Positions 33,617-38,254 of a stretch of 64,000 nt of DNA are shown in pieces. Source of the stretch: Synechocystis sp. LKSZ1 (GTDB taxonomy: Bacteria; Cyanobacteriota; Cyanobacteriia; Cyanobacteriales; Microcystaceae); NCBI RefSeq assembly GCF_040436315.1, contig NZ_AP031572.1, positions 1,054,001 to 1,118,000 on the forward strand, written 5' to 3'. Made by a program: the position numbers and the translations under genes. A model generated the notes under the pieces. It did not search any database. It was not told the DNA's origin and saw only the letters and a list, made by a program, of their open reading frames with translations. Position 1 is the first letter of the stretch. The number at the start of each line of letters is the position of its first letter.

Positions 33617-36600
33617 CTAGAAAGGAATATCTTCATCATCGGTTGCGAGTGTCGGTGGCAGAGGGCGACCCGTAATCATAGGTTTATGCTCCTCGCTCGG
33701 AGGTGTCGGGTCTGAGTCTTCGGCCCGGATCCACTGGCCCTCAAAGTTTTTGGCTAACCGCTCCATGGCCTTATGAAGGTCTTGAGGCTGACTGACGGTT
33801 TCGGTCTCTGGAGAGGGGGACGAGGGAGGATTGACCGTTGGGGGGACAGGGGCTGGGGTAGAAACAGACGGCTTGGGAGTGGGCAGGGCCTGGACTTTAG
33901 GAGGGGGCGGTGGCGAGGGCACGGGAACCAGCTGGGGGGACTCTGGCTTCGCCACGGGTTGGGAAGGATTGACCGCCGGGGCCATTGCCATTTGGAGAAT
34001 AAATTTAACCTGGAGTGGTCGTTGGCAAATCCGCCGCAGGGCCACTTCAACATCCGCTTGGTGCTGTTGGGCCATTCTCAAGAGCGGGTCGCTCCGCATA
34101 CCGATCTGGGCCAGGGAGGTATCTAAGTGGACAAGACTGCCGTGTACCTTTAGGAGGGCCTGGGCCGCTGGGGACAAATAGGGCAAACAGTCTTGCCAAA
34201 CTTGAGCCAGATCCGTGGTTGCTGGGGAAGGTAGTGGGGTTGGGGTTGAGGGCGATGGGACGGCGGCCACCGACTCCTCCGGGGAAGCGGGTTCTGGAAT
34301 CACTGGAGGCGATGGTGGTGGACTCACTGGCATTGGCGAGGGGGCAACGGCAGAGGCGGTTGATACGGCAGGGGCATTGCCAACTGCGGAGGGAAGCAGG
34401 CCCAAAAGCGTTACCTCTAGCCAAAGCTGGGGTTGGGTGGTGTTGCGGAGTTGGACTTCGGCTTCTCGCAGGCATTGTTGGCCCTGAAGAATGGTGTTAA
34501 TTGGCCAAGACTGGGCAAGCTGAACCAAGGCTTGCCAGGTCGAGGCCGTCACTGCTACGAGGTCTGTGCGCTGGGGGGCCGTGCGGGCAATCAGCAGGTT
34601 CAGGTAAAAGCTAGCTAGGTTTTGCAGGACGACCAAGGGTTCCCGGCCCCGGTTCAGGATCTGACGACCGATATCCAAAAGCTGTTCAGGATTATCAGCG
34701 GCAATGGCCTGGAGCAGTTTCAAGAGGTCTTGCTCTGGCACCGTTCCCACTAAATCCCAGACCTGTTCCGGGGTTACCGGGCCCGGCAGTAAACTAAGTT
34801 GGTCGAGGAGACTTTCTGCATCCCGCAGGCCCCCATTGGCCAACTGGGCCACCAGGGTCAGAGCTTCGGGTTTCAAGGCAATGGCCTCTGCCTGGGCAAT
34901 ATGGGTGAGGTGGGCCACCATAGACGCAAGGGGAATACGGCGATAGTCGAAGCGTTGACAGCGGGAAATAATTGTGGGTAGAACTCGCTGGGGATCGGTT
35001 GTGGCTAATACAAAGACTACTCGTTCTGGAGGTTCTTCTAGGGTCTTGAGTAGGGCATTGAACGCAGCCGCACTTAACATATGGCAGTTATGAACTAGAA
35101 GACCATTGGCAACAAAATTGTGATTATCTTCTACTTCAAGGTCATAAACAGCTTCAATGCCAGCGAGGGTTACAGACTCGACCGTTACCAAATTTGTAGT
35201 CCATGGTAGGGATTGAGTATTGTTTAAAATCGTTAAGGAATTTTCGGGTGCTTTTTGCTTTAAGGGATAAGTAGTAGTAAATTTTTTTAGTGTTAGACTT
35301 TTTATATTTTCTGACTTCAGCCAGGTATCCGTGGGAGGTAAGCCAATCGGCCAAAAGCTGATTTTCTGATTCGGAGTATCCTTCAGTATGAAATTGAATA
35401 TGAGGACTTCCTTGAGGACTAAGGATAAGAGAACCATCATCCAAATACCACCAGGCGATTCCTTCACTGGTAACTTTTTCCAACCAGTTAGAAGAAATAG
35501 CTTTAGCCTGATGGTTAGGTCTAACGGTTTCAAAGATATCACATAGCTGGGGATGACAGATGGAGTGACATACGATGGAATAATTTCCGTATCCTTGATT
35601 GACTCGACGATTAATTTGGATTTGAAGTTCGGGTAGTTGCTTTGCTTTATATTCTGCCCATTCTCGCTGAGATTCACCGTGAGTCCATCCCAGACGGGGG
35701 AAGCGACTGTAGGGATTTGGTTTGGTAATGTGGGCATCCCCGAGCAGAGTTCCATAGATAAGTCCCAATTTTTCGGAGGATAGAGCTTCCAATGTTCCCA
35801 GGAGTTTTTGGGTTCGGAGATCCCATATTCCATGGCCTTTTTGGTAAGGATGCTTTTGCCAATAGGATTGGATCCCCTGAAGACCAAAGCCTTTTTTTTG
35901 CATGAATTCTGGGACTGCCAATTTCTGACCACAGCCGCAGGCACAGAATGGCCGGAGAGGTTCTGCTTGGACCAAAATGGAGGCAAGATCGTAATCTTTT
36001 TGTCCGAATTTATTCCCTTTGAATTGGTGTCCTCGTACAAAGCGGCGGCGGCGATGATCTGTTCCGTATTTTTTGATAAGGGTTCCGCATCCACACTCAC
36101 AGGGGATAAGATCTTCATCCCGGCTGTTAGATTTTCTGCTGATATCCATCCTTTTTCTGTCCTAATAAGATGATTTGGTGTACATTGAATTGTCCCTTGT
36201 TTGGTGTGTATTAACAGTGTTTTTTTCTGCCCTCGCTCGAGCCAGCGAGTCACTTTTTTGTACTCCCATGAATTTGTTGTTTCGTTATAACTTAAGACTT
36301 TTTTGCCCAATAAATCAGGATTGTCAATACGCATTAAACCCCGCGATGTCTGGACGAGGCTACTACCAACTAAACATTCATCAATAACATAAATCTTATA
36401 GCGACACTGTACTGGTGCAAACTGGGCCCGTTCAATGATCTCCCGGATGTTATCTACGCCGGTGTTGCTGGCCGCATCAATTTCAATCACATCCAGCGCC
36501 GATCCCTTGATAATGGCCTGGCAAATTGCGCACTGGCCACAGGGACTGGGGGTGGGGTTTTCCCCGGCAATACAATTCAGGGATTTAGCTAAAATGCGAG

Positions 36601-36763
36601 CCGAAGAGGTTTTGCCCGTTCCCCGCGGCCCCGTAAAGAGGTAGGCGGGGGCGATGCGTTCCTGCACAATGGCATTGCTTAGCGTTGTGGCAATGGCTTC
36701 CTGCCCCACGAGGTCAGCGAAGGTCTGGGGGCGATATTTGTGGTGCATTGGTTCGTAACCCAT
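33617..36763 (-). CDS. dnaX: DNA polymerase III gamma/tau subunit with an intein
   Basis: 1048 residues from ATG at 36763 (MGYEPMHHKYRPQTF). The host protein has Walker A GPRGTGKT (about 45-52), a four-Cys zinc module (from CIAGENPTPSPCGQC onward), and Walker B VIDE|CHMLS interrupted by the intein after the Glu. After splicing the protein would be 618 residues: clamp-loader ATPase domains III-I, then a proline-rich tau-like linker (PAPVPPTVNPPSSPSPETET and similar) and a C-terminal helix-rich end. It loads the beta clamp and couples polymerases. The intein occupies residues 130-559. Confidence 0.93.
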   Translation of the reverse strand: MGYEPMHHKYRPQTFADLVGQEAIATTLSNAIVQERIAPAYLFTGPRGTGKTSSARILAKSLNCIAGENPTPSPCGQCAICQAIIKGSALDVIEIDAASNTGVDNIREIIERAQFAPVQCRYKIYVIDECLVGSSLVQTSRGLMRIDNPDLLGKKVLSYNETTNSWEYKKVTRWLERGQKKTLLIHTKQGTIQCTPNHLIRTEKGWISAENLTAGMKILSPVSVDAEPLSKNTEQIIAAAALYEDTNSKGINSDKKITILPPFWSKQNLSGHSVPAAVVRNWQSQNSCKKKALVFRGSNPIGKSILTKKAMEYGISEPKNSWEHWKLYPPKNWDLSMELCSGMPTLPNQIPTVASPVWDGLTVNLSENGQNIKQSNYPNFKSKLIVESIKDTEIIPSYVTPSVIPSYVISLKPLDLTIRLKLFLLTGWKKLPVKESPGGIWMMVLLSLVLKEVLIFNFILKDTPNQKISFWPIGLPPTDTWLKSENIKSLTLKKFTTTYPLKQKAPENSLTILNNTQSLPWTTNLVTVESVTLAGIEAVYDLEVEDNHNFVANGLLVHNCHMLSAAAFNALLKTLEEPPERVVFVLATTDPQRVLPTIISRCQRFDYRRIPLASMVAHLTHIAQAEAIALKPEALTLVAQLANGGLRDAESLLDQLSLLPGPVTPEQVWDLVGTVPEQDLLKLLQAIAADNPEQLLDIGRQILNRGREPLVVLQNLASFYLNLLIARTAPQRTDLVAVTASTWQALVQLAQSWPINTILQGQQCLREAEVQLRNTTQPQLWLEVTLLGLLPSAVGNAPAVSTASAVAPSPMPVSPPPSPPVIPEPASPEESVAAVPSPSTPTPLPSPATTDLAQVWQDCLPYLSPAAQALLKVHGSLVHLDTSLAQIGMRSDPLLRMAQQHQADVEVALRRICQRPLQVKFILQMAMAPAVNPSQPVAKPESPQLVPVPSPPPPPKVQALPTPKPSVSTPAPVPPTVNPPSSPSPETETVSQPQDLHKAMERLAKNFEGQWIRAEDSDPTPPSEEHKPMITGRPLPPTLATDDEDIPF
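35087..36376 (-). other. DnaX intein, 430 residues, splicing blocks intact
   Basis: The first residue is Cys (CLVGSSLV, block A). Block B is TIQCTPNHLI with the TxxH motif. Block F is EVEDNHNFVANG and block G ends VHN followed by extein Cys. All residues for class 1 splicing are present. Insertion is in Walker B (VIDE/CHML), a known dnaX intein site. The in-frame residues from about 100 to 390 resemble no endonuclease or other domain; they are the shadow of an ORF in another frame (35154-36149). Confidence 0.93.
35154..36149 (-). CDS. LAGLIDADG homing endonuclease encoded out of frame within the dnaX intein
   Basis: 331 residues on the same strand as dnaX but in another frame, from ATG at 36149. 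It opens with two Cys-rich modules (PCECGCGTLIKKYG followed by RRRRFVRGHQF; CACGCGQKL), then a LAGLIDADG-like helix LGLIYGTLLGDAHI (about 128-141) and a second, GIAWWYLDDGSL (about 230-241), with basic DNA-binding residues between and after. The start overlaps genuine intein sequence after block B, and its end overlaps the sequence just before block F. No well-placed ribosome-binding site is visible (AAAGG touches the ATG), so how it is translated is open. Confidence 0.8.
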   Translation of the reverse strand: MDISRKSNSRDEDLIPCECGCGTLIKKYGTDHRRRRFVRGHQFKGNKFGQKDYDLASILVQAEPLRPFCACGCGQKLAVPEFMQKKGFGLQGIQSYWQKHPYQKGHGIWDLRTQKLLGTLEALSSEKLGLIYGTLLGDAHITKPNPYSRFPRLGWTHGESQREWAEYKAKQLPELQIQINRRVNQGYGNYSIVCHSICHPQLCDIFETVRPNHQAKAISSNWLEKVTSEGIAWWYLDDGSLILSPQGSPHIQFHTEGYSESENQLLADWLTSHGYLAEVRKYKKSNTKKIYYYLSLKAKSTRKFLNDFKQYSIPTMDYKFGNGRVCNPRWH

Positions 36764-36926
36764 CGCAGTAACTCCATCAGATACAGGGACAATGGACAAT
36801 CCGAATACTTGGCCCCCGATCAAGTCTAGCTCAGGGGTGGAAAGATGCTGTCACCACCGGTCAGACCATCGGCCGAGCAACCTTTGCGCGTAAGATAGGG
36901 GAAAATTTGCAGGTTTATCTCCCCCC

Positions 36927-37523
36927 ATGTCTGATTTACCAACGCCAGTCACTGACCCCACCGAAGCCCTGAGTCATCAATTGACTACTTTAATGGAACA
37001 GGTCACGGCCCTCAGCCAGCGCGTTACCCATCTAGAAAACAAACTTTTGCTAATTCCTGATATTGATCGTTACGGCAAACTGCAAGACCTACTCAAACAG
37101 GGACAATTGAAGGAAGCCGACCTGGAAACTACCCAGATTATTCTGGACACGGCGGCCATGGGCCGAGATGAACTCAGTCCCGAAATTATCGCCAAGTTTC
37201 CTTGTACTACTCTGACCGTGATTGACCGGCTCTGGCGTACCTATAGCGAAGAACGGTTTGGCTTCAGTATCCAGCTGGAAATCTATCAACAGGGCGGAGG
37301 CAGTATCGATACCCTGCGGACTCAAGACCGTAAGGTGATGGGGAAGTTTGCCCAGACCGTTGGCTGGCTGGTGGAAGGGGAACTGCAATTTCCCAACTAC
37401 GATAACTGGGACTTTTCGCTCCAGGCCCCTAGGGGCTGCTTTCCCGCGATTTGGTGGCGATCTCCCTACGGCCTCAAGATGGTGACGTTCTTCTTTTCGC
37501 GTTTAATGGAATGCAATATCTAG
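36927..37523 (+). CDS. GUN4-domain protein
   Basis: 198 residues. A short coiled-coil-like N-terminus (ALSHQLTTLMEQVTALSQRV) precedes the GUN4 fold: LLKQGQLKEADLETTQIIL, KFPCTTLTVIDRLWRTYSEE, RFGFSIQLEIY and LQAPRGCFPAIWW. GUN4 proteins bind porphyrins and stimulate magnesium chelatase; related GUN4-domain proteins serve as sensors. This one is shorter than canonical GUN4 and lacks its N-terminal helical domain, so it is probably a paralogue. The last 4 bp overlap the convergent pentapeptide gene. Confidence 0.85.
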   Translation: MSDLPTPVTDPTEALSHQLTTLMEQVTALSQRVTHLENKLLLIPDIDRYGKLQDLLKQGQLKEADLETTQIILDTAAMGRDELSPEIIAKFPCTTLTVIDRLWRTYSEERFGFSIQLEIYQQGGGSIDTLRTQDRKVMGKFAQTVGWLVEGELQFPNYDNWDFSLQAPRGCFPAIWWRSPYGLKMVTFFFSRLMECNI

Positions 37524-38254
37524 GGCTGGAAGTTGGACGGTAGCAGGGCCTCCCTGAGATCGGCCTGGGCCAACAAGGTTCCCGTGAGGTCGGCCCCCCG
37601 TAGATCGGCGCCGGTGAGAATGGCGCCAGTGAAATCGGCATAACTGAGATCGGCATTCTGGAGATTGGCCCCGCTTAAGTCTGTGGGCCAAGTGGGCGGA
37701 TTACCAGTCTGAAACGTTGCTCGACAGAGTTTGCTTCCCGCTAAATTAGCCTGTACTAGACAGGCCTGACCCAGGTTAGCGTAGCTCAAATCGGCCCCTT
37801 GCAAGTTCGCCTGGGCCAGATTGGTTCGTTGTTCCCCCGTGGGCCGCAGATCCGCGTCAATTAACAGGGCCTGTTCAAGATTGGCGCCCTGGAGATGGGC
37901 ACCGCTCAAGGTGGCTTTGCAGAGATAGGCCTGACTCAAATTCGCCCCCTGCAGAAGCGCACCACTGAGATCGGCGTCGCGCAAACAGGCCAACATTAAG
38001 TTTGCCCCTCGTAAATCCGTTCCCCACAATAACGCCTCACTCAAATTGGCCCCCAATAACTGGGCCTGGTGCAGATCACTTTTGCCGAGACGAGCCTGGC
38101 GAAAATCAGCCTGCGTGAGATTAATGCCGGGTAAGACGACTTGAATGAGGTCACAACCCCGGAGATTCAGACCGGGAAAATCTCGCTCACCGAGGAGGTA
38201 CCGACGCAAAAAATCTTCGACGAGGGGATGGGAGGAAACTGGAGACACGGTCAC
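37520..38254 (-). CDS. Pentapeptide-repeat protein
   Basis: 244 residues, almost entirely A(D/N)LxX pentapeptides from residue 25 to 235 (for example [19 protein letters not shown]), which fold as a right-handed quadrilateral beta-helix. There is no signal peptide or membrane helix. Cyanobacteria have many such proteins, mostly of unknown role. A break around residues 127-140 ([14 protein letters not shown]) is the only interruption. It is divergent from bioU, with about 150 bp between the starts. Confidence 0.9.

Follow-up and report, generated by a model that had tools for sequence, protein, structure and literature searches.

The window analysed here is a stretch of 64,000 nucleotides (nt) from Synechocystis sp. 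LKSZ1 (contig NZ_AP031572.1, positions 1,054,001 to 1,118,000), in which dnaX, encoding DNA polymerase III gamma/tau, contains an intein whose DNA appears to encode a homing endonuclease in a second reading frame. The gene occupies positions 33617..36763 of the window (NCBIfam PRK14948, E=9e-235) if translation starts at the ATG at 36763; the open reading frame (ORF) as listed starts at a TTG at 36823. Like all features described for this locus, it is on the minus strand. The intein comprises 430 codons (35087..36376), reads CLVGSS...VHN followed by CHM, and is inserted between IDE and CHM, a site that would correspond to the Walker B region of the dnaX product. In the dnaX frame the Pfam profile Intein_splicing was matched with E=3.4e-14 (53.4 bits against a cut-off of 35.8) and TIGR01443 (intein_Cterm) with E=1.1e-9. 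The splicing motifs are in place: C1, the N-terminal nucleophile of block A, at 36376; the TxxH of block B, present as CTPNHL in the window and with T66 and H69 invariant in alignment A1; and the C-terminal junction VHN/C at 35087. Over the 1290 nt of the intein there is no stop codon in the intein frame, and there are 33 in the third frame.

A 331-codon ORF (35154..36149) is offset by 2 from the dnaX frame, i.e. it lies in the -1 frame of the intein. Its product matched LAGLIDADG_2 (PF03161; E=1.1e-19, 71.5 bits against a cut-off of 25) and PHROG 11023, a LAGLIDADG homing endonuclease family (E=4e-10); no match was found in NCBIfam. The two LAGLIDADG helices are at 35727..35768 (LGLIYGTLLGDAHI, with Asp138) and 35424..35465 (EGIAWWYLDDGSLI, with Asp237 and Asp238), all three aspartates being invariant in alignments A2 and A4. 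They are preceded by two Cys-rich modules, CECGCG...GH (36027..36101; alignment A2 and sequence) and CACGCG...GH (35832..35945; alignment A2). The ORF opens after block B at an ATG (36147..36149) lying inside the Hint Gly-Trp codons GGA TGG and closes within Hint sequence, the overlaps being GWISAENL... at its start and VTVESVTLAGIEAV at its end. In the intein frame the same DNA is divided into an N-terminal Hint part (residues 1-91, 36104..36376), an insert derived from the endonuclease DNA (residues 92-393, 35198..36103) and a C-terminal Hint part (residues 394-430, 35087..35197, with VYDLEVEDNHNFVANGLLVHN conserved). The stop-free 430-codon intein with its splicing motifs, the 331-codon ORF in another frame of the same strand, its paired helices and Cys-rich modules and the overlap of both its ends with Hint had all been claimed in the first-pass annotation of this DNA and were confirmed, and its central interpretation, that a homing endonuclease is overprinted on the dnaX intein, is supported by the homologues, selection tests and structure predictions described below.

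The endonuclease was modelled by AlphaFold2 with a mean predicted local distance difference test (pLDDT) score of 87.6, from 17 sequences. In the intein-frame product the Hint ends were ordered (block pLDDT 70-84 in the N-terminal and 54-73 in the C-terminal part), and residues 92-393 stayed below 50; with 3 sequences in this alignment, the contrast between the two frames is partly one of alignment depth. The solved folds closest to the endonuclease model were I-WcaI (template modelling score 0.77 by target length) and I-SceI, and PI-SceI was also a fold match. A profile search likewise gave I-WcaI as the best match (6x1j, E=6e-33), with I-SceI also among the best, the matched segment spanning positions 102-297 and not the N-terminal Cys-rich modules. 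By these models the ORF product would adopt a LAGLIDADG fold.

Unlike the ORF described here, I-SceI and I-WcaI are carried by introns. If the dnaX insertion were likewise a group I intron that carries an endonuclease ORF, such matches would be natural; Hint parts with splicing residues are, however, present at both ends, the intein frame is open and the Hint flanks are strongly conserved (see below). Moreover, Rfam gave no intron match at E<=1 over positions 34500-37200, the only matches being two to small nucleolar RNAs with E values of 0.7-0.9, far below the cut-offs. We therefore regard an intron as hardly conceivable.

Relatives were sought in 148 genomes, the window's own included, with thresholds of E<=0.001 for the endonuclease and E<=1e-8 for the N-terminal part of the intein; matches were obtained in 18 and 29 genomes, respectively. 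At E<=1e-15 the endonuclease was found in 12 of 386 genomes of a phylum sample and in 46 of 217 genomes of one family (f33). Named carriers are Laspinema sp. D2d and a metagenome-assembled genome of Nostoc sp., the latter with a deletion derivative. Among six genomes inspected at the dnaX site, five were uninterrupted (G001, G002, G004, G010 and G018) and one had a mini-intein (G003). A full-length endonuclease match was present in 37 dnaX inteins, 36 of which were exactly 1290 nt long with the same frame offset; as these 36 were picked by length, the constancy should be read against the 37 full-length matches. For L071, L085, L087 and L089 the locus ends were taken from a separate determination, and G046 and G049 are near-copies. 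The intein frame was free of stops in all 36 inteins and the endonuclease frame had no internal stop in 31, while the third frame of the tabulated loci contained 11-26 stops. Two CxCGCx modules were present in 30 of the 36 endonucleases and one in the other six. The catalytic Asp and Asp-Asp were found in all of them (24 by pattern, 12 in printed rows), L079 having a stop inside motif 1. The 37th intein, that of Laspinema (L036/L002), is 1566 nt long, enlarged to 522 codons by added CxCGCG modules in the endonuclease, and open in both frames.

These comparisons decide against a sequencing or assembly error that split an ordinary in-frame endonuclease from the intein frame, an outcome which the first-pass annotation had itself named as fatal to its reading. 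Such an error would account for one genome; 36 genomes share length, offset and open intein frame, and the Laspinema intein is open in both frames at another length. In addition, Hint and host sequence flank the ORF on both sides in one frame, thus two compensating errors would be needed in each genome. An error is barely credible. The annotation had also named in-frame homologues as a refutation; no dnaX intein was found with this endonuclease in its own frame (the 36 of 1290 nt and that of Laspinema are all of the -1 type), whereas more distant LAGLIDADG_2 genes are in frame in longer ORFs at 30 of 79 viral loci (see below).

For the stop-avoidance test, the synonymous codons of one frame were permuted (5000 shuffles) and the stops in the other frames were counted. 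Shuffles preserving the endonuclease of the window contained on average 6.0 intein-frame stops, or 10.8 with background codon usage, and none of the 5000 was free of them; the observed number is 0. In the same shuffles the third frame was at its null (20 stops observed, 17.8 expected). Four further genomes, two of them near-copies, agreed, the weakest being G118 (P=0.019). In the reverse test on the window, with the intein-frame peptide held fixed, a mean of 11.6 stops was predicted in the endonuclease frame and none was observed. The ratio of nonsynonymous to synonymous substitution rates (omega), derived from 13 pairs on separate tree paths, was 0.27 (0.22-0.32) for the endonuclease, 0.80 (0.63-1.02) for the intein-frame insert and 0.17 for the Hint flanks. 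When the four pairs holding an endonuclease stop were left out, the values were 0.29, 0.91 (0.69-1.21) and 0.16, and the nine closest pairs gave 0.21, 0.63 (0.41-1.10) and 0.14, respectively. With the synonymous rate of Hint as reference, substitutions that alter the intein-frame product and leave the endonuclease unchanged occurred at 0.68, and the converse ones at 0.23.

The endonuclease is under purifying selection. Its low omega, the high omega of the insert and the avoidance of stops show that strong constraint acts on the endonuclease protein; the insert looks like mostly filler that is kept stop-free, with weak amino-acid constraint and an omega interval reaching 1.02. The dual selection looked for in overlapping genes is thus present as low omega in one frame and stop avoidance in the other, and as judged from these codon patterns selection keeps the endonuclease sequence in the one and purges stops from the other. 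The earlier claim that about 1 kb stays open in both frames therefore held, with all 36 intein frames open and stops avoided; it has to be adjusted in that the insert appears to be filler selected mainly against stops.

A second functional domain encoded by the insert was also considered and is not supported: no folded structure is predicted for it, and in most of the pairs compared the third frame matched its peptide similarity. When this similarity was compared with a codon-shuffled null in six genome pairs, the intein frame showed no excess in one (G000-G046), and in three the unread third frame topped its own null as much as the intein frame did, or more.

The same data bear on the view that the endonuclease is a dead relic, formerly functional, now untranslated and owing its preservation to common descent and to the intein frame alone. 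Internal stops in five of the 36 copies, together with many partial copies and shortened inteins, would fit this view. The endonuclease omega, the absence of the stops predicted by the intein-frame shuffles and the catalytic residues retained in all 36 copies speak against it, and the intein frame, being the weakly constrained one, is an unlikely preserver. A relic is, in our opinion, quite improbable.

Shortened dnaX inteins were collected by a pattern search for recognisable ends, by which some were missed (e.g. L044 and L071). The intein frame was stop-free in 34 of 35. In the exception, L045 (G091:C300, 1516-2341), the N- and C-terminal parts of the intein are in different frames and are separated by a repeat with many LRGDRVLPP-like units; either dnaX is broken at this locus or the assembly is faulty there.

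The arrangement was also found in other inteins. L103 (G587:C61:1500-6000, minus strand), first met as a distant endonuclease match, is a 1221-residue UvrD-like helicase ORF with an intein at IDE/C...HN/CQD, the host being identified by its motifs and by resemblance to L184 (UvrD by Pfam). Its intein contains a 295-residue LAGLIDADG ORF in the +1 frame, the third frame having 26 stops, which makes it a second case from a cyanobacterial genome, with a relative frame opposite to that in dnaX. A family search of 377 cyanobacterial genomes yielded 21 matches, spread over 19 of them, namely nine out of frame in dnaX (G000, G118, G302, G359, G419, G429, G431, G443 and G464), one in frame (L253) and 11 free-standing.

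Searches of plasmid, phage and viral sequence collections yielded nothing closely related to the window's endonuclease, the best full-length viral matches having about 30-36% identity. Of 95 viral relatives 80 were kept and 79 classified (L162, the twin of L161, was omitted): 21 endonucleases lay within a longer open ORF but outside its frame, 30 were in frame, in the sense of a longer ORF in the same frame regardless of whether it contains an intein, and 28 were free or not judged, a class including loci with little flank. Two single-query viral scans added no locus from a further contig. Of the 21 out-of-frame host ORFs, 18 were searched with Pfam; Intein_splicing was matched at E<=1e-3 in 16, in nine of them above the curated cut-off, and was not matched in L161 or L173, the latter being without any Pfam match. 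Where Pfam gave the host a name, it was a ResIII, DEAD or UvrD helicase or a terminase, and LAGLIDADG_2 matched all of the 10 nested endonucleases scanned (10 of 21). In Xanthomonas phage FoX3 (L150, MT161383.1 24911-30567), for example, an annotated putative DNA helicase contains an intein and an unannotated out-of-frame LAGLIDADG endonuclease. After removal of a duplicate (L165), 20 distinct cases remained for the counts of stops, initiation sites and motifs. Synonymous permutation indicated avoidance of host-frame stops at P<0.05 in all 20 (weakest L156, 0.02), and the third frame was near its null in most. The relative frame was -1 in six and +1 in 14. To judge from these sequences, inteins of other ATPases also house related endonuclease genes outside the intein frame, shifted by -1 or by +1.

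Two further layouts were observed among the viral loci. The terminase ORF of contig L163 has two Intein_splicing stretches, with an out-of-frame endonuclease in the second. In phages Ymer and AN_ECEAS (L151 and L152) a related LAGLIDADG ORF is flanked by a hypothetical ORF upstream and, on its other side, by a helicase ORF, these two seemingly being pieces of one gene; the layout may represent a fractured gene, an intron or a split intein.

An endonuclease tree was built from 81 rows, including 62 of the 79 viral loci and seven dnaX loci; support is weak at 37 of the 78 inner branches. The 13 rows of the -1 frame (seven dnaX, six viral) form one group with a support of 88. The +1-frame rows, 15 of the 28 out-of-frame rows, require five changes, two of which are forced by starred branches, and the distinction between out of frame and in frame requires four when free-standing genes are excluded. 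These groupings and frame changes suggest that the out-of-frame arrangement arose at least twice, and probably more often.

How the endonuclease would be translated was approached through the signals near its start. In the viral cases GGAG or GAGG was present 4-11 nt before the first ATG or GTG of the nested ORF in 8 of 20, as against 102 of 1904 other ATG or GTG codons in the host ORF spans (about 5%; P=5e-6); in the -1 class alone the number was five of six. In dnaX the ATG at 36147..36149 is at the same place in all 36 inteins of 1290 nt, and a weak Shine-Dalgarno-like AGGA (36160..36163) lies 10 nt upstream of it in the window.

The first-pass annotation had offered internal initiation or slippage as alternatives. 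Programmed -1 frameshifting from the dnaX/Hint frame would agree with the relative frame of the dnaX cases and with the A-run directly before the ATG in the window. The proposed slippage motif, GAAAAAGG, is however confined to the window, with GAAAAAGC in L032/L035 and neither in the other 33 of the 36, and the +1 class would need a shift in the opposite direction. A scan for X XXY YYZ heptamers gave one common candidate, A AAT TTG, about 26 codons downstream of the ATG in 28 of 36 inteins. We did not accept it as a mechanism: a shift at this heptamer would remove part of the first Cys module, and the heptamer may be conserved as endonuclease codons only. Frameshifting is thus unlikely. Internal initiation at the -1-frame ATG is most likely, being favoured by the ATG at the same place in all 36, the enrichment of Shine-Dalgarno sites before viral starts, the lack of conservation of the A-run and the opposite shift directions that frameshifting would demand.

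From these observations we propose a mobile intein in which a splicing domain and a homing endonuclease are encoded by one stretch of DNA, each in its own reading frame. The dnaX message would be translated into a precursor from which Hint, folding from its two ends, splices itself out, the excised intein carrying a loop of about 300 residues that is presumably unstructured and amounts to an out-of-frame reading of the endonuclease gene. Separate initiation inside the dnaX mRNA, at the ATG in the Hint Gly-Trp codons, would give a 331-residue, I-SceI-like LAGLIDADG enzyme with two Cys-rich modules. This enzyme would cut intein-free dnaX at IDE/CHM and so lead to the copying of the intein into the site. 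Where homing is no longer selected, the endonuclease would gain stops or frame-keeping deletions and end as a mini-intein; such a graded series is seen in the genomes, and relaxed selection is its presumed cause. Endonuclease translation, intein splicing and cleavage of the site are predictions made from sequence, and with this qualification we consider the complete mechanism very likely.

Several observations weigh against it. Internal stops interrupt the endonuclease in L067, L071, L079, L082 and L088, in L042 and L089 (2 of 36) it ends about eight codons early, and Laspinema is without an ATG at the usual place of the start. As the ATG is also kept in 31 of 35 shortened inteins and lies in Gly-Trp codons, its conservation is weakened as proof of a start codon. 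AGGA at 10 nt upstream, found in 24 of 36 full-length inteins, is nearly as common in shortened ones (18 of 35), and is therefore no evidence on initiation for dnaX; in the viral +1 class the enrichment of Shine-Dalgarno sites is weak (3 of 14, P=0.036). The excess of intein-frame peptide similarity over its null was greater than that of the third frame in two of the six pairs (G000-G118 and G046-G118), which may point, weakly, to some amino-acid constraint on the loop. The unequal alignment depth of the structure predictions belongs here as well, as does an approximately unbiased test that did not reject a single clade of g78 inteins (p=0.166).

The last result concerns the spread of the element. 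In an intein tree of the 33 of 36 loci with enough flank, L081 and L082 fall among the g78 inteins, whereas the extein tree keeps g78 together (starred support of 100). Between L079 and L081 the differences at fourfold degenerate sites amount to 0.54 in the exteins, as against 9/32 in Hint and 14/102 in the endonuclease. The patchy distribution and an intein divergence below that of the exteins in some pairs are suggestive of horizontal spread by homing.

Fourfold sites were less divergent in the endonuclease than in Hint in this pair and also in L056/L076 (6/107 vs 8/28) and L072/L074 (0/114 vs 4/35), which may be a mark of either dual coding or gene conversion. Near dnaX, the window has an ORF with many A(D/N)L-type repeats (37520-38254, minus strand), which, judging by this motif, would encode a pentapeptide-repeat-like protein.

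No account of an out-of-frame endonuclease inside a true intein was found in the open-access literature, which was covered mostly through titles and abstracts and with few subscription papers. The nearest published case appears to be the ShiLan domain, an insertion in a mycobacteriophage methylase with a hidden HNH endonuclease, similar out-of-frame HNH insertions being reported in other phages and prokaryotes (PMC11855218). According to that paper, the insertion does not interrupt the host ORF and has its endonuclease ORF in a different frame, homing is presumed and translation is unexplained, as here; in contrast, the ShiLan insertion has no splicing domain, so it should stay in the methylase, and its host gene is called non-essential (PMC11855218). 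In the present case a LAGLIDADG endonuclease is inside a true intein, with Hint present, in dnaX, and selection was measured in both frames. A second report (PMC12613952) reportedly concerns phage Applejack. In classical bifunctional LAGLIDADG inteins such as PI-SceI the endonuclease is in a loop of the Hint splicing domain, in frame and on the same chain, whereas the enzyme described here is encoded in a different frame and needs translation of its own. Overlap of a meganuclease/intein ORF with another ORF in a shifted frame is also found in the STALEMATE entanglement, which is man-made for biocontainment (PMC12455656), whereas the overlap in dnaX is natural and evolved.

The Ssp DnaX intein of Synechocystis PCC 6803, from the same host protein, is known from engineered mini-inteins, which splice efficiently, and has a putative endonuclease domain; the passages available from these studies, which use mini-inteins, name no second frame (PMC3443213, PMC3620165). 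By analogy, splicing of the Ssp mini-intein supports the predicted splicing of the window's intein. The natural PCC 6803 intein reportedly has 430 residues, the length found here, and would then presumably be of this type. If that length is correct, an intein that serves as a laboratory tool may itself be dual-coded.

To our knowledge, long (about 1 kb), conserved overlapping genes on the same strand are thought to be rare outside viruses. In dnaX the two products would stand on opposite sides of one life cycle, splicing protecting the host and homing spreading the element. One site offers a natural series of intact pairs, stop-bearing endonucleases, partial copies and mini-inteins, with the third frame as a built-in control. 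As the unannotated nested gene of FoX3 illustrates, intein nucleases can escape annotation. It is likely, in our judgement, that frame-decoupled inteins form a widespread, overlooked class of mobile elements, in which LAGLIDADG_2 genes have time and again invaded ATPase inteins (clamp loader, helicases, terminases), lying outside the intein frame, in the -1 as well as the +1 position, each with its own start. The dose and timing of the nuclease would thereby be uncoupled from the making and splicing of the host protein, the nuclease would be hidden from annotation, and the loop would be evolved junk kept free of stops. Whether homing nucleases gain from translation that is independent of splicing becomes testable with such inteins, and, if the class is real, the host-frame loop would be a natural protein segment that is readable but meaningless.

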